53,866 bases of DNA. Source: Bacteroidia bacterium (GTDB lineage Bacteria; Bacteroidota; Bacteroidia; NS11-12g; UBA9320). Location: NCBI GenBank assembly GCA_016779945.1, contig JADHMR010000006.1, positions 1 through 53,866 on the forward strand, read 5' to 3'. Of the stretch, positions 8,330 to 52,976 are shown piece by piece (the first letter of the stretch is position 1; each line of letters opens with the position of its first letter). The notes under the pieces were generated by a model that made no database searches, had not been told where the DNA came from, and was given only the letters and a program-made list of their open reading frames with translations. The position numbers and the translations under genes were made by a program.

Positions 8330-8367
8330 AATTATTAATGAGTGAGTACAACTAGGTTTATAGAACA

Positions 8368-8470
8368 CTTATCTTCTCCCCAATGTGGGATAGGATGTAG
8401 CACCTTGATATTCGAATACTCAGGTTGCCAAGACGTCTATGGGCCTAATCCCTCAGTCTTTCTTAATAAG
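8368..8470 (-). promoter_or_regulatory. SAM-I (S-box) riboswitch upstream of metH
   Basis: Read on the minus strand, this stretch has the S-box order of elements. P1 is closed by CTTATT at 8470 and GATAAG ending at 8368. AGAC pairs with GTCT in P2, the core has GAGGGA and GGCAACC, P3 is a hairpin with TATTCGAATA at its top, and then GGTGCTA and a P4 with CCC/GGG follow. It lies 38 bases before the metH ATG, where SAM-responsive control makes biological sense. No run of T follows it, so repression is more likely at translation initiation than by a Rho-independent terminator. Recognised by eye; a covariance-model search was not possible. Confidence 0.88.
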
Positions 8471-8513
8471 CACTGCAAATCAACGTAATTTATTTTAAAT
8501 TGATCTATTAAAT

Positions 8514-8540
8514 AAAAAAACCATTCGCAAAGGCGAATGG
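8514..8540 (-). terminator. Rho-independent terminator after the giant type B gene
   Basis: A perfect 8-bp stem (CCATTCGC/GCGAATGG, 8521-8540) with a 4-base loop is followed on the minus strand by seven Ts (8520-8514). It sits 27 bases past the stop of the 1931-residue protein gene. A T-run also follows on the plus strand (8541-8547), so it could work in both directions, though no plus-strand gene leads into it. It separates the sigma-factor operon from the metH riboswitch. Confidence 0.85.
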
Positions 8541-8566
8541 TTTTTTTAAGTGATATAAATTATTTA

Positions 8567-11500
8567 CTAATTTCTAATTAGGTCTACAGAACCCTCAATT
8601 GGTCCTTTACCTTCATTTTTCTCACCAAACTTGAATGTATAGTTTATGATGTAGAAGTATGTTCCTTCTGGGCATTCTTCTCCTGTATTGTCAACTCTAC
8701 CGTTCCAAGAGTTGTTAATATCAGTAGACTTGAATACAGACTCACCCCATCGATTAAAGATCTTGATTTCGTATTCATCAAGGCTTTCTCCTTCAATCAC
8801 AAATTCAGTATTTTTATCATCAGTACTGTTTGGAGTGAAGACGTTGTATGGGACTAGTCGTCTTAAGAACGTATTAGATACGGTCTGACAAGTATCGTCT
8901 TCGCAACCCTCTGAACTTGTGGCAGTAAGACATACTTGGTACACACCTTTACGCTCATCCCAGTTGTAACAAGGATCTGTTTCTTCGCTTGTCCCATCTG
9001 GTTCAGGATCATTTTCTTCGAATGTCCATTTATAGCTGATAGCTCCAGTGGATGTATTCGTAAAGCAGAATTCTGGTCGAGCAGAGCTGTCGATATCGAA
9101 GCTAGCTTTAACATCAACTACTCTAACACGAATAGTGTCACGATCCCAACATCTGGGTAGTTCGTCATATTCAGGTGCTAAAATAACTTCATAAACACCA
9201 GGATTAGGATAAGAGTAGGTAACGGTTGTGTCCGGAACGTTTTCGTTAATCTCATCATCATTGTAACCCATGAACCATTTCAATCGAATATATCGATTAT
9301 CTAGAATACCTGTAAAAGTAATTGGGTCGTCTGGACAAACCACAGTATCTGATGCGGTAATCTCTACCTCTGGACGAGGATTTACAATGACTACTATTCG
9401 ATGCTGAATTAAGAGGTCTGGATTTGTATCCGGGAAAATTCTAGAACAACGATTACCCGTTCCAGGTATTTCATCTTCTTGAATTAAGAATAGTTCGTAT
9501 GTTCCTGGGGTAGTATAAACGTGACCAAAAACTGAGCCTATATCGCCTGGAAGATCGTTGCTTCCGTCTCCCCAAATAATTTGGAATTTAGGGTCAGAAA
9601 CATCTCCCTGACTTGTATTTTTTAGATTAACTAAATCGTTTACACAAATAACAGCGGTGTCATTTATATTCCATACATCATTGTCAAACTCAAATTGAGG
9701 TTGTGGCCCAGGTATGTAGATCTGTCGTTTGATACTATCGATACAACCCAGTTGTGTTGTAACGGTTAGCATTACAGTAAATGTACCTCCAGATGTATAA
9801 TTATGGGATGGATTTTGAAGGATACTTTTTCGTGTTCCGTCACCGAAATCCCATTCCCATGCAATGATTTTTTCACAAGATAAGTCTATTCCATTTTTAC
9901 ATGTATCTTTAGCTGCACACGGATCAATGATTGAACTTGTATCTTGGAAGTTGATGATCGACGCACAATTAACGAGTTCGCTTCCAAAATCAAATCCTGG
10001 TAGAACTTTAGAAACAAAAACGGTTAGTAAAGTTGTATCTGTACATCCAATACTGTCCTCAGCTACAACGGTAATTGTATACTCTCCAGGATCAGTGTAT
10101 GTATGATTTAGGATAATTGAACGAGTACTGTCAAACTGACCGTCATTGATATCCCAATCTGCTCGATAAGTTTCCTCGTTGGTAAGATATCGAGTTTGCC
10201 ACAATGGGAAATCATGAATGGGGTAGGTAATTGGATCTTGTTCTCCGTATTGGTAGTATCTGAGTGAATCTTCAATGACTAAGTTGAGTCCTTGACATAA
10301 ATTTTCATTACTTACCCAGAAGTCGTTATAGAATCCAACATTGATAAGTTTTGTTGACCTAGCCTCACAACCCGGGGTGCTATTCAAGAATAAAGACGGT
10401 GCCATTGGGCCGCTACCATTTTTATAAATGGTGTCTTTAACTCCTGGGTTACATTCATCAGGATTTGTAATAACAGGATACTTATAGATGTGTCTATACA
10501 GGCCAGTTAACATATCTTTTTTACCATCAAAGTTGGTGTCCAACATAAGCGTATCAAAACCTTGCATAGAGGAATCTCTAAAGTGAAGAATATGTTGTGT
10601 TTCGATTTGAACACTTGGACTGACAGATGTGTCGGTTCTATAAATTTTATCACCAACACGTGTTACTCCCCACTCTCCAGTTTTGTCTGAATAAATCTCT
10701 TTACCAAATTGGAATAAAGCACTTATCCCAGTAGTATCAAGACAACCAAAGGTTCCGTCACCAAGGTAATAGGGAATATCTTCAGCAGGTAATTCATTAT
10801 AATTCAAGTTCAATATTTGCTCGAAAGCATCTTTGATTAGTTGGTCGGTATTGGTTTTGATAGCAACAACCTTCCAGTCTTTTATGATAGAGGTAACAAT
10901 CGTATCGATTATTTCTTCGCCTAAAACATCATCAATATTCCTTCGAACAGTATAGTTGTATAACCAATCTTCACCATTATATACTATGTCTGAATCATTT
11001 CTATTTGCTTTAGGACCAGTATATGGTTGATAATATTTAAATTCCTCTACGTAGATAGATAGATTAGGTCCTTTTCCTAAACCTTGGTATCCCCAAGCCC
11101 AACGAAGTGTTTTTATACTATCTTGAATAGGGTTAGTAATTCTGTAGTAAGCGGTATCTCCTGGACACATGTAGTACTGCAATGGAGTTGTACTAATTGG
11201 CGTAGGATATACAATATCAAAACTTGCATCAAGTGGAAGTATTCTGAATAAATCAGGGTAGTAAAAAGTATCTAAACATGCTGGAGGACCACCGGTAGGG
11301 TTTGGTTTTCCATTTCCAACAATTAATCCTAATGCAAACGAACCAATTGGGTTTCTAGCATAGGGGTTTCCTATTTGTCCTGGGGTGTATCCTTTAACAA
11401 ATTGAGTACCAACATTACCAACTATTTGGTATGGAAGTTGGAATGGGATAGGGTTGCCAGGAGGCGGAGGAGCTAGTAGTCCAGCGTTGTATGGAATAAA

Positions 11501-14362
11501 TGCATTCGGATCAGCAAAAGTGTCTAGATTCACTGCAAACCACTGTTGTGTACAGCCTGGTTTAGTTTCAGAAATATCAAAAGTTAAAACATAATTTAAG
11601 TTATTCCCATCAAAAGGACAGGGTATTCCACTTACCCATTCTAAGCCTCTTGCATTTGGTGGAATAAGGGCTAGTTGTTTAGTCCCAGTTGCCTCACACA
11701 TCAAAGGGTGTATAGTATCTTTCTGCCATAAATTTACTGTAAAACATGTAGCTTGATCGGTAAACCATTTTTCTCGATGACCGGCAGAGTCAACAAAAAC
11801 AGCTTGTTTTACAACCCTAACAGGAATACCAAATCTATTTTCTTGCACTACATAGTTTGATGGTTGTGCATATGAAGTATCTGGGTCATTTTCCTCGATA
11901 TAAATTGTTGGAGATATGGAGTCAAAGCTATACAAAGTGAACTGTTCGTCAGCTTCAATAATTATTGTTTGTGGACCTGTTATAGATCTGGTAGTTCCAG
12001 CTCCACCACCTCCACCACCTGGAGCATCAAGTTTGAGAATGTCAATAGTTACACCATTAGGGATAAAGAATTCCATATCATGATAGGTGATAGTCCATTG
12101 AGTATTTCCATTTCCATTTCGTGGGTTGTTTCTTCCTAAAGAGTCCTCATCATGAAAAGTAGTATCAACCAGGTTATTGATTGCAACAAAAGTATCTCTT
12201 GCTGCGTCCCAATAGAATTTCGTTCCGTAAAACTTGGATGGGGGACGTCTGACTATCCAGTTTCCTAACTTATTTTTTGGATAGGTTACACCAGCAGGAA
12301 TATTTACACCACGATAAGTGTAGGAGGAATCAATAGGGATTGTTAAGACGGTATCACCCGGAACAATCATGGTTTGTGCTGAGTAAATGTTTACTTGATA
12401 ACATTCACGAAGTGGCTTATTGATTCTAGTTTCTCGGTATGGTTGAGTGTAGTTTCTTCCATCTTGGAAGGTTCTGTATATTTCATCCCACGGAGTATAC
12501 CAGTGGCACGGAGCACTATCGATTACCCAATTACAATTTATTCCTACATTTTTATTGACCCATGGTCTAGAATCAGTAGTACATTGAGGAGCATATTGAT
12601 CGCCCATGTCCCACACTCGCCATATATTTGGTCTGTAGTCTCTGGCTTGGAAAGCAGGTGGAATAGCAGTTTGATCCCCAACTCCTACACCTCCTCTACC
12701 TACAGGTGGGGTGTAATTAAACACAAATCTTACTTTTCCATCAACACCGAATCGATAACTTGTATTAGGAGCAGCGGCATAGAAGTCTTTGTGCCAAGTA
12801 GTGTCACCCCCTTTGATCGCGGCTATGGAGTCTTTAGTTGCGTCATAGTATACGCGGTAGCCATTTTCTTTAATGGTATCAGAATTGCCATAAGTAGAAT
12901 CTGTCAGCAAGAAGTTGCCTCGTGGTCGTTCTTCCCATGTTTTATAATGCCAACTGTATAGCCCCGTATTTATATCAAAAACTCGTTCGAAAGTGTACTT
13001 ATAGTAGTAAACAATCGAGTCTTCGTCTAGTCGATTAAAATCATTTTGGTAGTAAGATGAGTTATTTGGGAAGCATACCGTGTCTTCTATTACGCATTGG
13101 TATGTTTGATCTTCAGCTACTCTGTCAAAAGGTACTTCAATTACTGACCCTGGGCCAATTACTTGAACGGTATCATAAACAGTAATATCACACGGGCCAG
13201 ATTGCAATCTCAAGCTAACCATCCATGGTCCAGGGCCATATCCAAATGATGGAGTTAAAGTTTGATTATTAAAGTTTGGAGGTCCTGCAGGAGGATTACC
13301 AAAATTCCATAAAAATGAACTAACGCTTGCCCCATTCAATCCTGCAACAGAAAAATCTATAGGGTTATCGGGAGAACATGCTGGATTTGGCGTTGATATT
13401 ATTTTTGGCTCTAGTATAATATTTCCAACTGCTGCCTTAAATTTAAATGTGTCGAGACAACCATATGCTGAGGCAATCAATGTACCATCAAAAGTTCCAT
13501 TTATTCGATACATATGTTCAATGATTCCTGGTTTTGCCGGGTCTAGTCCATTCCACCATTCTGTATTCGTAGTTGAATTACCTTTGATAGAATTACCGTC
13601 TCCAAATACCCATTCAAAAGAATCCACATCTGATAGTGGTACAAGAGATACATTTTTGAATACACCTAATGTTGAGTCGCAATTGGGATTAGGGTTAGGA
13701 GTTAAATTTAAAAATTCTATACCCAATTTTGGATATACGTATAGATAATCTTTAAAAATTAATTTACTTACACAACCACTAGAATCCTCTGATTCTATAA
13801 CCAAGTCAAAAAATCCACCACTGGGGTCTGTAATATCTACACAGAATGAGTATGGGAATGTTGGGTTTATAGAGTCTATACGTAATCCATTACTGAATAC
13901 ATACGTTTGTCTTACGATTAAACCAGTTGGAGCTTGTGAGCTATCCTGAAAACAGAATGAATTGTTTCTGAAACATTGAGCTGAGTCATTTAAACGTTTG
14001 AAATAAATATCTGGTGAGGGCTTAACTGTAATCGTTAGCGTTTCAGTACATTGACCTGCAAATCCGTCTCCTTTGAAGGTAACAGTATATGTTCCGGCAA
14101 TAGGGTAATTAAACGTTGGTTTTTCAGCATTACTTTTATTGTTGTTATAACCAAAATCCCATTCAATAGTAGTAGTGTATCCTGGAGAGTTTGCTTCAAA
14201 TGCAATAATTTGACCTTCACAAAAAGTACCAGATGTACTCAATGTACCGTCAGTTCTAACAACTTTAGGACTACATTGTGCATATCCAATGATACTTGTT
14301 GAGATAAATAACAATGAAAATAAGTATTTAATAAACACAGATTTTGATTTTGAAATATTCAT
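8567..14362 (-). CDS. giant PKD-repeat protein with T9SS type B sorting domain
   Basis: A 1931-residue secreted protein. The ATG at 14362 is chosen because it gives a signal peptide directly (MNISKSKSVFIKYLFSLLFI, cleavage near GYAQ). Longer in-frame starts exist (ATG 14416, TTG 14425). PKD-type domains with the WDFG/WVFGDG signature lie near residues 60-120, 250-310 and 350-400, and again in the last third (about 1420-1820, for example WEWDFGDGTRKS). The middle third is not obviously PKD, is rich in Tyr, Trp and Pro, and holds a six-glycine linker. The last ~93 residues (NVFTPNSTDD...IFNRWGESVF...GTYFYII) are a type B CTD for export and surface attachment by the type IX system. It is the last gene of the ECF-sigma operon. 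Confidence 0.9.
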   Translation of the reverse strand: MNISKSKSVFIKYLFSLLFISTSIIGYAQCSPKVVRTDGTLSTSGTFCEGQIIAFEANSPGYTTTIEWDFGYNNNKSNAEKPTFNYPIAGTYTVTFKGDGFAGQCTETLTITVKPSPDIYFKRLNDSAQCFRNNSFCFQDSSQAPTGLIVRQTYVFSNGLRIDSINPTFPYSFCVDITDPSGGFFDLVIESEDSSGCVSKLIFKDYLYVYPKLGIEFLNLTPNPNPNCDSTLGVFKNVSLVPLSDVDSFEWVFGDGNSIKGNSTTNTEWWNGLDPAKPGIIEHMYRINGTFDGTLIASAYGCLDTFKFKAAVGNIILEPKIISTPNPACSPDNPIDFSVAGLNGASVSSFLWNFGNPPAGPPNFNNQTLTPSFGYGPGPWMVSLRLQSGPCDITVYDTVQVIGPGSVIEVPFDRVAEDQTYQCVIEDTVCFPNNSSYYQNDFNRLDEDSIVYYYKYTFERVFDINTGLYSWHYKTWEERPRGNFLLTDSTYGNSDTIKENGYRVYYDATKDSIAAIKGGDTTWHKDFYAAAPNTSYRFGVDGKVRFVFNYTPPVGRGGVGVGDQTAIPPAFQARDYRPNIWRVWDMGDQYAPQCTTDSRPWVNKNVGINCNWVIDSAPCHWYTPWDEIYRTFQDGRNYTQPYRETRINKPLRECYQVNIYSAQTMIVPGDTVLTIPIDSSYTYRGVNIPAGVTYPKNKLGNWIVRRPPSKFYGTKFYWDAARDTFVAINNLVDTTFHDEDSLGRNNPRNGNGNTQWTITYHDMEFFIPNGVTIDILKLDAPGGGGGGAGTTRSITGPQTIIIEADEQFTLYSFDSISPTIYIEENDPDTSYAQPSNYVVQENRFGIPVRVVKQAVFVDSAGHREKWFTDQATCFTVNLWQKDTIHPLMCEATGTKQLALIPPNARGLEWVSGIPCPFDGNNLNYVLTFDISETKPGCTQQWFAVNLDTFADPNAFIPYNAGLLAPPPPGNPIPFQLPYQIVGNVGTQFVKGYTPGQIGNPYARNPIGSFALGLIVGNGKPNPTGGPPACLDTFYYPDLFRILPLDASFDIVYPTPISTTPLQYYMCPGDTAYYRITNPIQDSIKTLRWAWGYQGLGKGPNLSIYVEEFKYYQPYTGPKANRNDSDIVYNGEDWLYNYTVRRNIDDVLGEEIIDTIVTSIIKDWKVVAIKTNTDQLIKDAFEQILNLNYNELPAEDIPYYLGDGTFGCLDTTGISALFQFGKEIYSDKTGEWGVTRVGDKIYRTDTSVSPSVQIETQHILHFRDSSMQGFDTLMLDTNFDGKKDMLTGLYRHIYKYPVITNPDECNPGVKDTIYKNGSGPMAPSLFLNSTPGCEARSTKLINVGFYNDFWVSNENLCQGLNLVIEDSLRYYQYGEQDPITYPIHDFPLWQTRYLTNEETYRADWDINDGQFDSTRSIILNHTYTDPGEYTITVVAEDSIGCTDTTLLTVFVSKVLPGFDFGSELVNCASIINFQDTSSIIDPCAAKDTCKNGIDLSCEKIIAWEWDFGDGTRKSILQNPSHNYTSGGTFTVMLTVTTQLGCIDSIKRQIYIPGPQPQFEFDNDVWNINDTAVICVNDLVNLKNTSQGDVSDPKFQIIWGDGSNDLPGDIGSVFGHVYTTPGTYELFLIQEDEIPGTGNRCSRIFPDTNPDLLIQHRIVVIVNPRPEVEITASDTVVCPDDPITFTGILDNRYIRLKWFMGYNDDEINENVPDTTVTYSYPNPGVYEVILAPEYDELPRCWDRDTIRVRVVDVKASFDIDSSARPEFCFTNTSTGAISYKWTFEENDPEPDGTSEETDPCYNWDERKGVYQVCLTATSSEGCEDDTCQTVSNTFLRRLVPYNVFTPNSTDDKNTEFVIEGESLDEYEIKIFNRWGESVFKSTDINNSWNGRVDNTGEECPEGTYFYIINYTFKFGEKNEGKGPIEGSVDLIRN

Positions 14363-14427
14363 AATGAGATTGTTATAATTCATAAAAAAGTTTGTAAAGT
14401 TAGTCTGCTTCGTCATAATATTCAAAT

Positions 14428-15657
14428 TTAGGGGCGTATTAGGGTGAATTTTATATTTTTAGTTTGGATTTTTTCACCGTTTAGTGTGTACTTTATTTTG
14501 GCTATATATTCTCCAGGCGGGCAATTTTCACCTTGATTATAAAGGGAGCCGTTCCATGGATTCTCTGGGTCATCTGAGGTAAATACCAATTGATTTTTGA
14601 CCTGGTCGTAAATAAGAATCTGATAATTTTCATAATTATTTATCTCTACAAGATATTTATCGTTAGTTCCATCTCCATTGGGTGTGAATACATTGAAAAA
14701 CTTGATAGATCCTGAACTCTTTATTTGAAAAGTGGTCGATTTTGGTTTAATGCATGGAGCATTTTTAGGTATAGTTTTAACTACATGTTTACCTACTTGT
14801 TTCTCTGTTAACTGACACGTATTGGTGTTTTCTGCTATTAATGCGTCATCTAGATACCAATCAAAAAGGAGGTCTTGGTTACTGGTTGAGAATAAGAATG
14901 TATGTTGAGTATTTTTTTCAGTAATTATTTGATAATCAATATCAATGACTTGAATAACTTCACTTATTTCACCGTTTTCGTTCACAAATCGAATAGATAC
15001 AGGGTTCTTTGAATCTGGTTTGTATTCTAATCGGTCGTTATTCGTTGATAAAATTTGGTTGTTAATGAACCAATCTCCTTTAGTTTGAGATTTTAAGGTA
15101 ATAGTTTCACCAATGCAAGGCTTTGAATTAGAAACGGCTATACGCTCAGACCTATTATTAATAGCTATTTCTGTTTCGTTGGTCGCTTTGTTTAATCCAA
15201 TGTTAGTGGTTGGTTGACTTTCAGGCTCTGTTGTATTTTCTAATTTTAATGATTGGTTAGTAGCACTTATAATTTTGTTTTTGATTGTCTTGTAACTTTC
15301 TGATATATCAGGTGATATATTTTCATTATATGTAGCAATGTCCTCAGAATTAGTAGGCTCATTAAAAATCGTATTGGAATCTACAGCGAGATTATCATTA
15401 ACATTTTTAGAATCAGCATTTCTGTTTTCTAAGGCAAAAAATAAGATAGTACTGGATACACCAACCAAAGTAGCGAGCTTAATTACTTGAATAGGACTCT
15501 TTATTAACTCAGTAATTTTAGATATGTTAGATTTAGGTTGTTTAAGCGATGAAAAGTCAAAATTTTCTAAAACGGATGATGGTGGCGGAGAATTATAATT
15601 TTTAAGCTTATCTTGGACTAGCTTTTCAAATTCAGATATATTTTTGAATTTCTTCAT
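14428..15657 (-). CDS. single-pass membrane protein, likely anti-sigma factor, with a T9SS-CTD-like C-terminus
   Basis: A 409-residue protein. Residues 1-56 are predicted cytoplasmic and contain a segment (EFEKLVQDKLKNYNSPPPSSVLENF) like the short 'DKL...PP..VW' motif at the front of many Bacteroidota proteins encoded next to ECF sigma factors. A transmembrane segment follows at about 58-78, then an Asn/Ser/Thr-rich periplasmic stalk and two Ig-like regions (about 165-310). The last 94 residues (FFNVFTPNGDGTND...NPWNG...CPPGEY...IKFTLIRP) resemble a type B T9SS sorting domain but lack its NRWG motif. The start overlaps the sigma-factor stop by one base (TAATG), which is why I infer an anti-sigma role. 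There is no signal peptide, so classical export is unlikely. Confidence 0.75.
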   Translation of the reverse strand: MKKFKNISEFEKLVQDKLKNYNSPPPSSVLENFDFSSLKQPKSNISKITELIKSPIQVIKLATLVGVSSTILFFALENRNADSKNVNDNLAVDSNTIFNEPTNSEDIATYNENISPDISESYKTIKNKIISATNQSLKLENTTEPESQPTTNIGLNKATNETEIAINNRSERIAVSNSKPCIGETITLKSQTKGDWFINNQILSTNNDRLEYKPDSKNPVSIRFVNENGEISEVIQVIDIDYQIITEKNTQHTFLFSTSNQDLLFDWYLDDALIAENTNTCQLTEKQVGKHVVKTIPKNAPCIKPKSTTFQIKSSGSIKFFNVFTPNGDGTNDKYLVEINNYENYQILIYDQVKNQLVFTSDDPENPWNGSLYNQGENCPPGEYIAKIKYTLNGEKIQTKNIKFTLIRP

Positions 15658-16199
15658 TATTCAAACCACCCTTTTAATTTTACTTGAAGTTGTTTTCTTG
15701 CCTTAAACAATTGAGTTTTACTGGTACTTTCGGAGATGTTTAATAGCTCACTAATTTCTTTATGTGAGTATCCATCAATGATGTACATATTGAATACTGT
15801 TCGGTATCCTTGCGGAAGTTCTTGTATTACATCAATTAATTTTTTTGCGTCTAAGTCTCCAACTTCGATTTTAGCAGTTCTTGATAATTCAGAGTCGTTA
15901 ATGTTTTCGATATTCTGGTGGTATTTTTTCTTACGAATAAGCTCAATACTGGTATGGATGAATATTTTTTTCATCCACCCTTCAAAACTACCTGTAAATG
16001 AATAAGTCGAAATCTTATTAAACACTTTGATAAACCCTTCTTGCAGTGCATCTTGGGCATCATTATGTGAGTTCATATATCTTAAACAGATACTATACAT
16101 TATTCCAGCGTACTTATTATATATTTTAGTAAAAGCGTTATGATCCCCGTTGCTACAAGCATTTATTAATGATATGTCATCATGTGTTTCATTGCTCAT
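15657..16199 (-). CDS. ECF-type RNA polymerase sigma factor
   Basis: A 180-residue sigma-70 family protein of the extracytoplasmic-function class. Region 2 covers about residues 20-90, with the DAQDALQEGFIKVFNKI core-binding and -10 recognition segment. Region 4 covers about 125-175, with the helix-turn-helix GYSHKEISELLNISESTSKTQL. Region 3 is missing, as expected. It is the first gene of a three-gene minus-strand run with the CTD-bearing membrane protein (one-base overlap) and the giant type B protein, so these are its most likely partner and target. The upstream 55 bases contain no clear TAnnTTTG element. Confidence 0.92.
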   Translation of the reverse strand: MSNETHDDISLINACSNGDHNAFTKIYNKYAGIMYSICLRYMNSHNDAQDALQEGFIKVFNKISTYSFTGSFEGWMKKIFIHTSIELIRKKKYHQNIENINDSELSRTAKIEVGDLDAKKLIDVIQELPQGYRTVFNMYIIDGYSHKEISELLNISESTSKTQLFKARKQLQVKLKGWFE

Positions 16200-16254
16200 T
16201 GCACGGATTAATAAGTAGATGTTTTAACAAAAGAAATAGTTGCCTGCTAAAAGG

Positions 16255-18095: not shown

Positions 18096-18518
18096 ATGAA
18101 CAAATTTAATGTACGCGTTTATGGTATTTGGATTAAAAATGAGAAAATATTGCTCAGTCATGAAAATATTGACGGCTTTGAGATGATAAAATTCCCTGGT
18201 GGAGGTTTAGAATATGGCGAAGGAGCTTTGGATTGTCTAAAACGAGAATTTAAAGAAGAATTGGATGTGGAAATTAGCTACTCAAAATTAATTCACGTCT
18301 CAGAAAAATATATTCAAAGTGCATTTAAAGAGAATGAGCAAGTTATTGCGATTCATTATCTTGTAGATTCAGCGGGAAAAATTAAAAATTATAAAATAAT
18401 TCAAGAAACTGCTGTCGGAAAAACGAATCAACATCATTTTAAGTGGTATAAACTTTTGCCATCAATAATAGATAGCTTAACATTTGAAATGGACAAAGAA
18501 GCTTTTAGGAAACTTTAA
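18096..18518 (+). CDS. NUDIX hydrolase
   Basis: A 140-residue protein with a complete Nudix box from about residue 37 (GGLEYGEGALDCLKREFKEELDV): G-x5-E-x7-RE-x2-EE, with Asp in place of the late glycine. The metal-binding REFKEE is intact, so it should hydrolyse a nucleoside diphosphate linked to another group, but the substrate cannot be read from the sequence. The gene is divergent from dihydroorotase with only six bases between start codons, so each promoter must lie inside the other gene or upstream of it. Its TAA overlaps the stop codon of the convergent type B protein gene (TTAA). Confidence 0.88.
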   Translation: MNKFNVRVYGIWIKNEKILLSHENIDGFEMIKFPGGGLEYGEGALDCLKREFKEELDVEISYSKLIHVSEKYIQSAFKENEQVIAIHYLVDSAGKIKNYKIIQETAVGKTNQHHFKWYKLLPSIIDSLTFEMDKEAFRKL

Positions 18519-21070
18519 TAAATTGGCTGTACAGTACCCTTAGCATTTCGGGTATTGCCATCGCAACCTCTGTAATTTACATAATAGAAAAAGGTTTCAT
18601 TGGGCACTTTTTTACCTTGGAAGGTTCCGTCCCAATTGTCGGTTTCTGATGTTCTTGAGTCAAACATTTTTTCGCCCCATCGGGAAAATATCATTATGTA
18701 ATATGCCGGTTGAGCAACATCCATTTGATAAGGGAACAACTCGTTGAGGTTATCGCCATTTGGTGTAAATGCGTTTGGAAAATACATTTCATTCGGAAGT
18801 GCGTTTTCATCTACCGTGATATATAGGCTATCAGACCCAAAGCACCCAAAGTTGTCTGTTACGGTTACTTCATAGAGCCCTTCCAAAATTGTTGTAATGG
18901 CAGAACTCGAATTACCGTCGTTCCATAAATATTCAACAAATCCAGTTGGAGCAGATATAGTTGTCGGAGAATTAATGCATATTGTTGTGTCATTGCCCAA
19001 ATCGAAAGTTGGCGAGATAGAAACACTAATTAAAACAGAATCTTCTTTAAAACAGCCATCTATGTTTTCAACAAGAACTGTGTATTTTCCTGGGGTATTT
19101 ACATCAATTTCTTGTGAGGTCTCACCATTACTCCATGTGTATTTTATACCATCAGGTCCAGCGTCTAATGATGTGGCTACAAAATCACAAAAATGTTGAT
19201 TGTCTCCCAATTCAAGATTGACAACTGAATTACCGACAATAAAAGTATCCGTATTTACGCAATGCCTTTGTGTTAATTGTATCCATCGATTGCCAGGACT
19301 GGTGTATGTTACAGTAGGCGTGGTATTGCCATTGTCCCATAAATACTCAGCTTCTTCAATGCCGGATAAGTCGACAAGATGATTAAATTCATCACAGTAG
19401 AAAACATCTTCAACTTTTGGATGAGTTGCTTGCCACACCCTTACGGTATCTTTTATGACACAATTTAGATTCATGGCAGTTACAATATAGTCTCCAATTG
19501 AATTAACATTCAGTGTTTTTGAAAAAGTTGGAGGATTAGTATTCCAAGAGTAACTCAATCCAGTTACACCAGCATCTAAGAGAATGTCAATGAGTGTGTC
19601 GCACTCTAGGGTATCTTTTGGTAAACTAAGTTTCGGAACTTTATCATATCTCAATTTAATGGTGTCTTTGTATACACATTTTCCATAAGAAACTGTAGGA
19701 ATATATGTGCCAGTATCACTAACATTTATTCGACTGCCTTTTGCTCCCGAATTCCAATCTACGGAAATTGCATCTGGGGCTTTCGTATCAAGCAGTATTG
19801 TAAAATCATCACAAAATACACGATCTGGGCCCAAATTAATAGCCCTAGTAGAGCGAATCCGTACACCATATTTATAAGTATCGTTACATATAGAGGATGT
19901 AATGGTTAGGTTCACCGTGTAGTCTCCATTTCCTGGGTAGACGTATTCAACCTTTTCATTAAGATCGAAGGTAGTTAGTGTGTCATTATTTGTTGTTGGA
20001 TCTCCAAAATCCCAAAAGAATTTCACTTTTGGTGTTTTTGATTTATTCCAGTTGCTTATGTTATTAAAGCTAGCGGTATCTCCACATTCAAATGCATATG
20101 ATCCTCCTACAGCAGTTCCTCCAGTTATGTTAAAGTTTGCGATAACATCAAATTGACAATCAATGACTGTAAATTGGTAATCACTCAATGTAGCCCCTAA
20201 TAAAACACCATTTCTATATTCAAGTACTCTAACGCCAACTGCATAAGTACCCTTGGCTGTTGGCGTAAGGGTATATTCTCCTGTTTTCCTATTGATAAAA
20301 CTAGACGGATTACCAGTTACTTGATTATTAGATGAAAAAGAAGGGTTCCATGATAATAAAGCATATGGCGGAGGACTGGGATTGTCTGGTTTTGGTTCTG
20401 TTGGTGATCCACCCAAATATGGCGTGTAAAATTCATAAACTAACGAGTCCCCATCAGGATCTTCAGCACTGTAGTCTAATGTCAAAGGAGCGTTTATACA
20501 AACGTACGTGGGAGGTACATTCTTGAATCTCGGACTAGAATTGTTTGTATTTTTTGGTGGGATATAACTCCAATACGTTGATCCAGCATTACCTGCATCG
20601 TTCACATTGTCAGTTATTGCATTTCTACAGCATAATTGGTGAGACAGAATAAGACCATTTGTTCCAGGATCTAAAAATACAGTTCTTTTGTAGGTATATT
20701 GAACCACACAAACTCCAGATGGTTCTTTCACACATTCGTAGTTTACAGAGTTAACTTCTTTTCTTACACCGTTGGTAAGTTGGATAGTTTGTTTGCGGGT
20801 ATTAGTAATAGCGTCAAAAACTCCAATATTGGCAAGATTACCGTCTCGATCAATAGTTCCAGGATTTGCATTCTGACAATCAAAATAAATCTTAAATACA
20901 ATTTCATATCGCACACTTCCAAGTTGATTAATAACTCGGTTGTAGTATAATTCTCCTCCAACTACATGTGAAGCGTCAGCCGAAAAAGCTCTCATAAAAA
21001 GTATAAAAAAGAAAGATAAAGCAAATGCTTTTGACTTTAGAATACGATATGTTATTGACAATTTTTTCAA
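18515..21070 (-). CDS. repeat-rich secreted protein with T9SS type B sorting domain
   Basis: An 851-residue protein. The only in-frame start that keeps the signal peptide (KKLSITYRILKSKAFALSFFFILFM, cleavage near SADA) is a TTG at 21070. The mature N-terminus opens SHVVGGELYY, a recurrent opening of Bacteroidota type B cargo. A PKD domain lies around residues 340-395 (FFWDFGDP). Four to five tandem Ig-like units of about 75 residues follow (about 410-750). Each contains a near 'LG.D...C' start, a 'Y.W..G' middle and a 'G.Y.V...N..GC' end. The type B CTD is at about 760-851 (FPNAFTPNGDN, IFSRWGEKMF, NWDGTFQG). Likely a surface adhesin. It is 22 bases behind the DUF5777 gene. Confidence 0.88.
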   Translation of the reverse strand: MKKLSITYRILKSKAFALSFFFILFMRAFSADASHVVGGELYYNRVINQLGSVRYEIVFKIYFDCQNANPGTIDRDGNLANIGVFDAITNTRKQTIQLTNGVRKEVNSVNYECVKEPSGVCVVQYTYKRTVFLDPGTNGLILSHQLCCRNAITDNVNDAGNAGSTYWSYIPPKNTNNSSPRFKNVPPTYVCINAPLTLDYSAEDPDGDSLVYEFYTPYLGGSPTEPKPDNPSPPPYALLSWNPSFSSNNQVTGNPSSFINRKTGEYTLTPTAKGTYAVGVRVLEYRNGVLLGATLSDYQFTVIDCQFDVIANFNITGGTAVGGSYAFECGDTASFNNISNWNKSKTPKVKFFWDFGDPTTNNDTLTTFDLNEKVEYVYPGNGDYTVNLTITSSICNDTYKYGVRIRSTRAINLGPDRVFCDDFTILLDTKAPDAISVDWNSGAKGSRINVSDTGTYIPTVSYGKCVYKDTIKLRYDKVPKLSLPKDTLECDTLIDILLDAGVTGLSYSWNTNPPTFSKTLNVNSIGDYIVTAMNLNCVIKDTVRVWQATHPKVEDVFYCDEFNHLVDLSGIEEAEYLWDNGNTTPTVTYTSPGNRWIQLTQRHCVNTDTFIVGNSVVNLELGDNQHFCDFVATSLDAGPDGIKYTWSNGETSQEIDVNTPGKYTVLVENIDGCFKEDSVLISVSISPTFDLGNDTTICINSPTTISAPTGFVEYLWNDGNSSSAITTILEGLYEVTVTDNFGCFGSDSLYITVDENALPNEMYFPNAFTPNGDNLNELFPYQMDVAQPAYYIMIFSRWGEKMFDSRTSETDNWDGTFQGKKVPNETFFYYVNYRGCDGNTRNAKGTVQPIY

Positions 21071-21092: not shown

Positions 21093-21980
21093 TTAAAAAT
21101 CAAATATTCTTGCTATGTTAAAACCGAATCGAACGTCTCCGTCGACCCATCTCCCTTTGGTGTCAGTTATAAATCCTTTTTCAAAGGGGGAGTATGCGTT
21201 GGTAAAGAAAAGCTGGAAAACATGTCCTCCAGTTTCAATATCAAACCCCAAAGATAAAGCATTTACACTGTTTTCGTCAAGTTGGTCAGGGAGAACATAA
21301 TAGTATTCCAAATTAATGGATACTCGAGATACTAGTTTTTGTCTAGCTCCTACCCCAATAGAAATAATATCATTAGTTAGACTGCTGTTTTCTACAAGGT
21401 TAAGGTGGGTGAGGGTTGGAGTTATCTGAGCACTAAAGTTTTTAGAAAACTTTCTAGCTAGCAATAATTGATGCGTGTAGTGTAATCGACTAGTAAATAA
21501 GTTCTCTTTTTCGGGGTTTGTCCATTTCAGTGAGTTGATTCCCATATGACTCATAATAACCCCAGTAATTGGGCTTGGTTTTTGCCCTTTACTTTGTTTA
21601 AGAAACTTATATTTTATAAAACCATCATATGTTTTCTCGACGGTACTTCTTCCTAAACCAATATTTAGATTATCAGTTATACCAAAATCTCCTCCCATTC
21701 TCATTGAGGCTTGATCGAGTCCAAACAAATCATAGAAACCGTTACCTACAATGCCAAAACGATGAGATATTTTAAAATCAAATTCGTTTTTTGCTACTGT
21801 TTCAATACTGTGTCCGTTGACTATTCGGTTGGTTTTAAATGTTGCTATGGTATATATTTTTTCTTGGGGTTCATTATCGTCAATTAAATTTAAATCTTGA
21901 GAAAATGCGGTTCCATAGATGGTAGCTAAGACTACGATTAATTTTAATCTTAAAACCAGTATGTGTTTGAAAATTCGCAA
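21093..21980 (-). CDS. DUF5777 family beta-barrel protein
   Basis: A 295-residue protein with a signal peptide (ending near AFSQ) and alternating strands typical of an outer-membrane barrel. The family signature regions are visible: FKTNRIVNGHSIETVAK, the DFKISHRFG segment, YDLFGLDQA and a terminal DGDVRFGFNIARIFDF. No ATG exists at the front; the TTG at 21980 lies 13 bases after the YceI stop and is the best start. DUF5777 proteins commonly sit beside YceI and haem c proteins in Bacteroidota, exactly as here, but the transported or bound molecule is unknown. Confidence 0.82.
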   Translation of the reverse strand: MRIFKHILVLRLKLIVVLATIYGTAFSQDLNLIDDNEPQEKIYTIATFKTNRIVNGHSIETVAKNEFDFKISHRFGIVGNGFYDLFGLDQASMRMGGDFGITDNLNIGLGRSTVEKTYDGFIKYKFLKQSKGQKPSPITGVIMSHMGINSLKWTNPEKENLFTSRLHYTHQLLLARKFSKNFSAQITPTLTHLNLVENSSLTNDIISIGVGARQKLVSRVSINLEYYYVLPDQLDENSVNALSLGFDIETGGHVFQLFFTNAYSPFEKGFITDTKGRWVDGDVRFGFNIARIFDF

Positions 21981-51884: not shown

Positions 51885-52976
51885 ATGACGTTATCACAAG
51901 TTAAACATCTCTCTTTTGTGGTTTGTATGGTGGGCTTGTTTAATCAAAATGCTTCAGCTCAAACTACACCAAAATACAGTAATGAATTTTTGTCAATTGG
52001 TGTGGGTGCGAGATCTTTTGGAATGGCTAATTCTGTTGTTGCGTCGGTTGACGATGTAACTGCTGGTTACTGGAACCCCTCTGGACTTGTGAAACAAAAA
52101 GAAAAGTTGCAAGTCAGCTTTATGCATTCTAACTATTTTAGTGGTTTAGCTAATTATGATTTCTTAGGAATTAGTACCCTAGTTAGTGAAAAGTCTACAT
52201 TGAGCTTCTCTATGGTAAGATTTGGTGTAGACAATATCCCGAATACATTGGACTTGATAAGAAATGGACAGATTAACTATGACAGAGTTACAAGTTTTAG
52301 TGCTGTAGATTATGGATTCTTTGTTAGCTATGCACAGAAAGCTCTTAAAAATGGTTTGAGTTTTGGTGGAAGTGCAAAGGTTGTCCATCGACAAGCGGGT
52401 GATTTTGCGTCATCTTGGGGTTTTGGTATTGATATGAGTTCACGATATGAATCCCAAAATGATTGGACTTTTGCTATAATGGCAAGAGATATTACCACTA
52501 CATTTAATGCTTGGAACTATAATTTTTCACCTGCAGAAGAAGAAATATTCCTTCAAACAAATAATGAAATACCTCAAAACTCTTTGGAATTGACTTTGCC
52601 TAAATTCATTTTTGGGGTAGCTAAAAAGATGAATTTAAGTGAGCGATTCAACTTACTTGCAGAAGTGAACTTGGATGTAAATACTGACGGTAAACGAAAT
52701 ACCCTCTTGAAATCAGACTTAATAAGTGGTGACCCGCATTTAGGTCTTGAGTGTGGCTATAGAGATATGGTATTTTTGAGAGCTGGAGTTGGAAATATCC
52801 AGCAACAAATGGATTTTAACTTCAGTAACCAATGGACATTTATGCCCAACATTGGTGTAGGTATAAAATTTAAACAGATTGTTTTGGATTATGCTCTTAG
52901 TGATATTGGTGACCAGAGTGCAGCACAATACTCACATGTATTTAGTGTGAGGGCTTCAATAGACCCTAAACGCTAA
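51885..52976 (+). CDS. PorV/PorQ-family outer-membrane protein
   Basis: A 363-residue outer-membrane barrel with a signal peptide (cleavage near ASAQ). The front of the mature part (KYSNEFLSIGVGARSFGMANSVVAS, then VTAGYWNPSGL) is the signature of the PorV/PorQ/FadL-like family in Bacteroidota. PorV and PorQ take part in type IX secretion: PorV shuttles cargo CTDs to the surface complex. The similarity to the 'PorV2' subgroup seems best, but I cannot separate the subgroups by eye. The type A and B cargo genes elsewhere in this window give it an obvious context. It follows the DUF479-like gene closely and ends 3 bases before the MsrBA stop. Confidence 0.8.
   Translation: MTLSQVKHLSFVVCMVGLFNQNASAQTTPKYSNEFLSIGVGARSFGMANSVVASVDDVTAGYWNPSGLVKQKEKLQVSFMHSNYFSGLANYDFLGISTLVSEKSTLSFSMVRFGVDNIPNTLDLIRNGQINYDRVTSFSAVDYGFFVSYAQKALKNGLSFGGSAKVVHRQAGDFASSWGFGIDMSSRYESQNDWTFAIMARDITTTFNAWNYNFSPAEEEIFLQTNNEIPQNSLELTLPKFIFGVAKKMNLSERFNLLAEVNLDVNTDGKRNTLLKSDLISGDPHLGLECGYRDMVFLRAGVGNIQQQMDFNFSNQWTFMPNIGVGIKFKQIVLDYALSDIGDQSAAQYSHVFSVRASIDPKR

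Follow-up and report, generated by a model that had tools for sequence, protein, structure and literature searches.

Whether the type IX export route, or a giant cargo that uses it, may control a sigma factor, as the first-pass annotation suggested, is the question raised by a minus-strand locus at positions 8567-16199 of the window (the whole 53,866-nucleotide stretch of Bacteroidia DNA analyzed here). At this locus, an ECF sigma factor gene is followed by a gene for a protein with a single transmembrane helix, a gene for a giant PKD protein, and a terminator (Table 1). The ECF sigma gene, the one base shared by its stop codon and the start of the middle gene (TAATG), the 65 bases between the stop of the middle gene and the start of the giant gene, the type B protein of 1931 residues, and the strong terminator had all been described before, and every coordinate was confirmed. 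The sigma protein scores 47.0 bits against Pfam Sigma70_r2 and 63.1 bits against Sigma70_r4_2 and harbors no region 3; among the NCBIfam sigma models listed, only the general ECF model exceeds its cut-off. The giant protein would comprise 1952 aa from an alternative TTG start at position 14425. Its CTD contains FNRWGE, WNG, and PEGTYFY, and the protein displays 91-92% identity in the closest relatives. The terminator was missed by a generic scan and seen on folding, with none of 200 shuffled sequences being equally stable. An ordinary SAM riboswitch (RF00162, 70.1 bits; 8366-8472, minus strand) separates the giant gene from a metH-like gene.

Table 1. Features of the sigma factor operon, with positions in the window
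Feature	Position	Strand	Basis
Predicted ECF-type promoter, GGCAACT-N16-CATCTA	16216..16244	(-)	Conserved upstream of sigma
ECF sigma factor, 180 aa	15657..16199	(-)	Pfam Sigma70_r4_2, 1.8e-17; Sigma70_r2, 2.3e-12
Predicted membrane anti-sigma factor, 409 aa, with a type B type IX CTD at its end	14428..15657	(-)	
N-terminal anti-sigma segment, residues 1-54	15496..15657	(-)	N-terminal profile matches; model helices 7-19 and 27-31
Transmembrane helix, residues 55-77	15427..15495	(-)	Hydropathy peak at residue 58; model helix, low pLDDT
Disordered periplasmic tether, about residues 78-167	15157..15426	(-)	pLDDT <50 across most of residues 60-161
Two beta-sandwich (Ig-like) domains, residues 168-239 and 240-315	14713..15156	(-)	pLDDT about 95; beta strands
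Anti-sigma type B CTD (CHU_C/TIGR04131), without RWG	14431..14712	(-)	PF13585, 48.2 bits; TIGR04131, 40.6 bits
Giant type B surface protein, 1931 aa	8567..14362	(-)	Signal-peptide-like start (judged by inspection); several PKD domains
Type B CTD of the giant protein, canonical FNRWGE	8609..8848 (residues 1839-1918)	(-)	CHU_C (PF13585), 70.5 bits
Intrinsic terminator at operon end	About 8513..8548	(-)	MFE, -20 kcal/mol; z, -7.5

The middle gene had been credited with the architecture of an anti-sigma factor and with a periplasmic end resembling a type IX sorting domain. The latter is borne out by two curated models, PF13585 (cut-off, 27 bits) and TIGR04131 (cut-off, 35 bits), both of which are exceeded, and the former is strengthened by homology between the N-terminus of the protein and the anti-sigma termini of the barrel-type proteins that partner related sigma factors, described below. 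The protein does not harbor a cleavable N-terminal Sec signal peptide; about 54 mainly polar residues lie ahead of the transmembrane helix, the hydrophobic segment of which spans residues 58-76, and residues 1-54 would bind the sigma factor in the cytoplasm. The structure model (mean pLDDT, 76.7) contains three beta-sandwich domains, the third of which is the CTD, and the structural matches of the two Ig-like domains are Ig/FnIII-like. Sequence and fold searches of the PDB with the middle protein retrieved mostly PKD/Ig/FnIII-type structures, and no solved type IX CTD was present among the matches listed. The distance between the transmembrane helix and the CTD is at least 104 residues in all of 93 homologs, and on general geometry this minimum span suffices for crossing the periplasm.

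The first-pass annotation proposed a survey of Bacteroidota for the three-gene order, and the order is indeed found to be conserved. Homologs of the middle protein, searched for in 58 related genomes, are present throughout the genus, and a giant protein with a CTD is encoded at a distance of 5-6 kb. Among 40 loci that were read, nearly all of those that are intact display the same succession of a sigma gene, a gene for a protein with a transmembrane helix and a CTD (about 280-450 aa), and a giant gene (about 1770-2035 aa). A profile made from the middle part of the giant protein led to 80 loci, from genomes that are nearly all metagenome-assembled. The sigma gene adjoins the gene for the transmembrane CTD protein in 62 of the 80 and the giant gene comes next in 56, and most of the loci without the full trio end at contig edges. 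The exceptions with enough upstream DNA yet without sigma and anti-sigma genes (L091, L118, and L152-L154) resemble paralogs; four of the five genomes have an intact operon elsewhere (UBA6063, CRAIB_MAG13, Jr-16oct17-93, and AF21_PE0). At one further locus (L149, 7217-7766), in a single genome, the sigma gene is present as two overlapping ORFs, reflecting either an assembly error or decay.

The same trio, with cargos of about 1430-1650 aa, is also found in two distant families, designated f12 and f38, and in f38 (L158, L159, and L160) porQ lies directly upstream of the operon (NF033711, 340-354 bits in the two loci scored; cut-off, 220). Upstream neighbors differ by lineage, being a 155-aa gene, a gene of 365-388 aa, or porQ, and downstream neighbors, judged by inspection, are metH-like, MnmE-like, or others. 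General neighborhood conservation can be ruled out as the cause of the gene order, as the flanking genes differ between lineages, and the trio is therefore kept together for its own sake. Conservation of this arrangement extends across the taxonomic order, and several further families of the class show it as well.

Among known architectures, that of the Dma (dual membrane-spanning anti-sigma) factors comes closest, and not that of a two-component secretion switch. In the Dma study (PMC13088901), these factors are described as an anti-sigma segment, a transmembrane helix, a disordered tether, and a C-terminal barrel, Dma deletion releases the cognate sigma factor, and the distribution is limited to Bacteroidota, as is that of the CTD-bearing anti-sigma factors. 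The middle protein likewise has an N-terminal anti-sigma segment, one transmembrane helix, a long disordered tether, and an ECF sigma neighbor, but it ends in Ig-like domains and a type B type IX CTD with no beta-barrel, and its operon includes a giant type IX cargo. Because the defining C-terminal beta-barrel is absent, we refer to the protein as Dma-like and not as a Dma.

The relationship between these forms was examined with the best sigma match from each of 60 further genomes, drawn from many families within the class. In almost every one of the 60, the sigma gene adjoins a gene for a partner with a transmembrane helix and an N-terminal motif of roughly F..xL.....PP..vW..I. The C-terminal parts of the partners comprise 23 type B CTDs, 15 beta-barrel-like regions, 6 other long regions, and 16 short ones, counts that are not prevalence estimates, the sigma profile having been built on CTD-type loci. 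The barrel-like assignment is based on length and a C-terminal aromatic residue, and Pfam favors a barrel in all four partners scored, two of them slightly below the cut-off. Some short-type partners (L204-L206, L213, L218, and L219) are followed by a separate gene for an outer-membrane-like protein of ~300 aa, as if the Dma barrel had been split off into a gene of its own; the one protein of this kind that was scored, from L204, has no Pfam match. A profile of the N-termini of CTD-type partners matches all 21 partners of barrel-type or other long form, all 16 short-type partners, and none of 130 shuffled sequences, and the N-terminal profiles of the partner types find one another. Judged by these profiles, partners of the CTD, barrel, and short types share homologous N-termini; the barrel-type proteins concerned are those found here. 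The sigma factors adjoining each partner type are related, and the partner types cluster strongly on the sigma tree (10 changes, versus 33.8 when shuffled), where the CTD type accounts for 6 changes, 1 of them forced by starred branches.

The CTD, which takes the place of the barrel, may or may not act as an ordinary export signal. In the anti-sigma factor of this locus, FTPNGDG.ND, WNG, and P.G.Y are present, and RWG and GTYFY are absent. R[WYFL]G is rare in anti-sigma CTDs (6% of 94) but common in cargo CTDs (94% of 78) and in other type B CTDs (85% of 13); a G-T-Y-F-Y type motif is found in 9% of anti-sigma CTDs versus 86% of cargo CTDs. Anti-sigma and cargo CTDs also form separate groups in a tree (3 changes versus about 62 when shuffled), which is based on few columns and has long branches. 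Identity to the closest relatives in the genus is 78-84% in the CTD, compared to 61-67% in the N-terminal segment and 23-29% in the tether, so that the CTD is under strong constraint; it is the best-conserved segment of the protein, well above the Ig-like domains. In terms of sequence, then, the anti-sigma CTDs make up a diverged subclass that is highly constrained and does not have the RWG motif. In a study of SprB (PMC12618676), secretion through the SprB CTD was found to depend on all five conserved type B motifs (A-E). By our reading RWG is one of the five, with no letter assigned to it, and since SprB needs them all, it is unlikely that a CTD missing a motif serves for ordinary export. 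The combination of constraint and loss of a cargo-typical motif is more in keeping with a mimic that docks than with an ordinary signal for export.

These same data bear on the possibility that the CTD is a working export signal after all. The C-terminus would then be borne on the cell surface with the N-terminus in the inner membrane, the Ig-like domains and CTD would sense an external ligand or contact, and the environment would set cargo expression. Such a protein would have the same layout as Dma with its outer-membrane barrel (PMC13088901), in other families this position is taken by a barrel or by an outer-membrane-like protein encoded separately, and the FTPNGDG and WNG motifs are often retained in anti-sigma CTDs. 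The rarity of the RWG and G-T-Y-F-Y type motifs relative to cargo CTDs speaks against it, as does the fact that conservation peaks in the CTD and not in the Ig-like domains, where a ligand-binding domain would be expected to be conserved. We consider this reading unlikely.

Our preferred reading, the truth of which we judge to be evenly balanced, is a self-regulating Dma-like switch with a CTD as its outer-membrane module, which would mimic a substrate and so sense whether the type IX route is occupied. The sigma factor, the membrane anti-sigma factor, and the giant cargo of the type IX route would all be products of a single ECF-driven operon. The anti-sigma factor would hold the sigma factor in the cytoplasm, cross the inner membrane once, and extend a disordered tether with the type B CTD as a substrate mimic. 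When the type IX outer-membrane machinery is free of cargo, the tethered CTD would dock on it, at the SprA translocon, at a shuttle resembling PorP/SprF or PorV, or at both, and would be retained instead of exported, because motifs that true cargo retains have been lost and the N-terminus is anchored. Docking would alter or destabilize the anti-sigma factor, freeing the sigma factor and leading to production of more giant cargo, and cargo entering the machinery would displace the CTD so that the sigma factor is captured again; the sign of this feedback is a guess. Secretion-sensing by the CTD-bearing anti-sigma factor is plausible, and the presence of porQ beside the f38 operon and of full-length SprA in relatives is consistent with it. 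In the source assembly, too, the type IX translocon is present, with SprA represented by fragments at contig ends.

Binding of the CTD to the giant protein, to its periplasmic intermediate, or to a cargo-specific partner would place the sensing step elsewhere, with unexported cargo titrating the anti-sigma factor in a cargo-specific stress response. The linkage of CTD-bearing anti-sigma factors to large type B cargos in many families is in agreement with such a response, but families f6, f20, and f17 harbor CTD-bearing anti-sigma factors with no adjacent cargo gene (L193-L195, L199-L201, L216, and L225). A local cargo is therefore not obligatory, and we regard cargo binding as improbable.

In the proposed switch, the sigma factor would act on its own operon. 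Upstream of the sigma gene in genus-level loci, the best-conserved intergenic element is GGCAAC(C/T)-N16-C(A/T)TCT(A/T). Across the order, GCAAC-N15-21-TCT is found in 53 of 71 operons versus a shuffled mean of 0.44, although the loci are related and the counts not independent, and similar elements are found upstream of sigma genes with barrel or short partners. The exact promoter pattern has a single match in the window and one match each, at the operon, in four near-complete genomes (G008, G010, G011, and G020). When 40 genomes were searched, 74 matches were obtained versus 58 in a reversed control, with 15 at the operon and 59 elsewhere. The matches away from the operon are thus equal to the control, and no multi-gene regulon is detectable at the stringency of the pattern; further targets could have promoters weaker than the pattern. 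The sigma factor is therefore predicted to serve its own operon and hence the giant protein, and we infer that it transcribes this operon from a GGCAACY-N16-CWTCTW promoter. That the CTD is a mere folded periplasmic cap without type IX recognition, on a sigma pair that answers generic envelope stress and has the giant as one target, would agree with the reusable nature of the CHU_C Ig-like fold and with the loss of export-linked motifs from the domain but is highly improbable: a generic stress regulon would fit neither the CTD being so much more constrained than the remainder of the protein, nor its repeated pairing with type B cargo and, in one family, porQ, nor a single-operon promoter.

In FecI/FecR/FecA cell-surface signaling, a membrane anti-sigma factor relays the state of the outer membrane to an ECF sigma factor. 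The Dma-like switch would resemble this system in that relay, but no TonB-dependent receptor is present here, and the partner sensed would be the type IX machine. In the PorA-PorXY-SigP pathway of Porphyromonas gingivalis, a CTD protein influences a type IX-linked ECF sigma factor (PMC7712824), and here too feedback would come from a CTD-containing protein. PorA is a separate surface protein that acts through a two-component system, with type IX component genes as the targets (PMC7712824), whereas here the CTD is fused to a predicted anti-sigma factor, with a single cargo operon as the apparent target. The giant protein, with its signal-peptide-like start, PKD domains, and canonical type B CTD, is similar to cargos of the SprB/SprF type (PMC12618676, PMC9143113). 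In contrast to the SprB/SprF arrangement, no porP/sprF-like gene is found beside the operon; the next downstream gene is metH-like, and the PorP-family matches of genome G000 lie on other contigs. The anti-sigma factor for its part differs from type B substrates both in a CTD without RWG and in having no cleavable N-terminal signal peptide.

No description of a CTD-bearing anti-sigma factor was found in the literature searched. This CTD-bearing form of a known regulator class is real, widespread among uncultured Bacteroidia, and apparently undescribed. Cells that carry it may directly monitor the machinery by which they export surface proteins. The activator of PorXY-SigP is unresolved (PMC7712824), and the portion of the Dma study available to us reports no signal for Dma factors (PMC13088901); an anti-sigma factor that carries a secretion signal would, if our reading is true, provide a direct molecular answer to the question of the signal in systems of both types. 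More broadly, and with somewhat less confidence than the switch itself, we propose that an inner-membrane-anchored substrate mimic serves as a one-protein secretion gauge, which would dock in the type IX machinery and signal its occupancy straight to RNA polymerase by way of a single-operon sigma factor. It would be part of a modular, class-wide family that swaps a barrel, a separate outer-membrane protein, or a type IX CTD on a shared anti-sigma chassis. If so, exchanging the outer-membrane modules on one chassis is predicted to change the signal that is sensed, and the autoregulated operon with its predicted promoter is usable as a ready reporter.

Genome G000 harbors 18 type B domains and two PorP/SprF-family proteins above cut-off, and several type B cargos may share shuttles there. 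Another type B CTD protein, of 851 aa, is encoded in the window at 18515-21070 (minus strand), beside a 295-aa protein (21093-21980) with no match to a named family. The window also encodes PorV2, a putative type IX sorting protein (51885-52973, plus strand; NF052325, 480.6 bits; cut-off, 325), which is a possible docking partner for CTDs.
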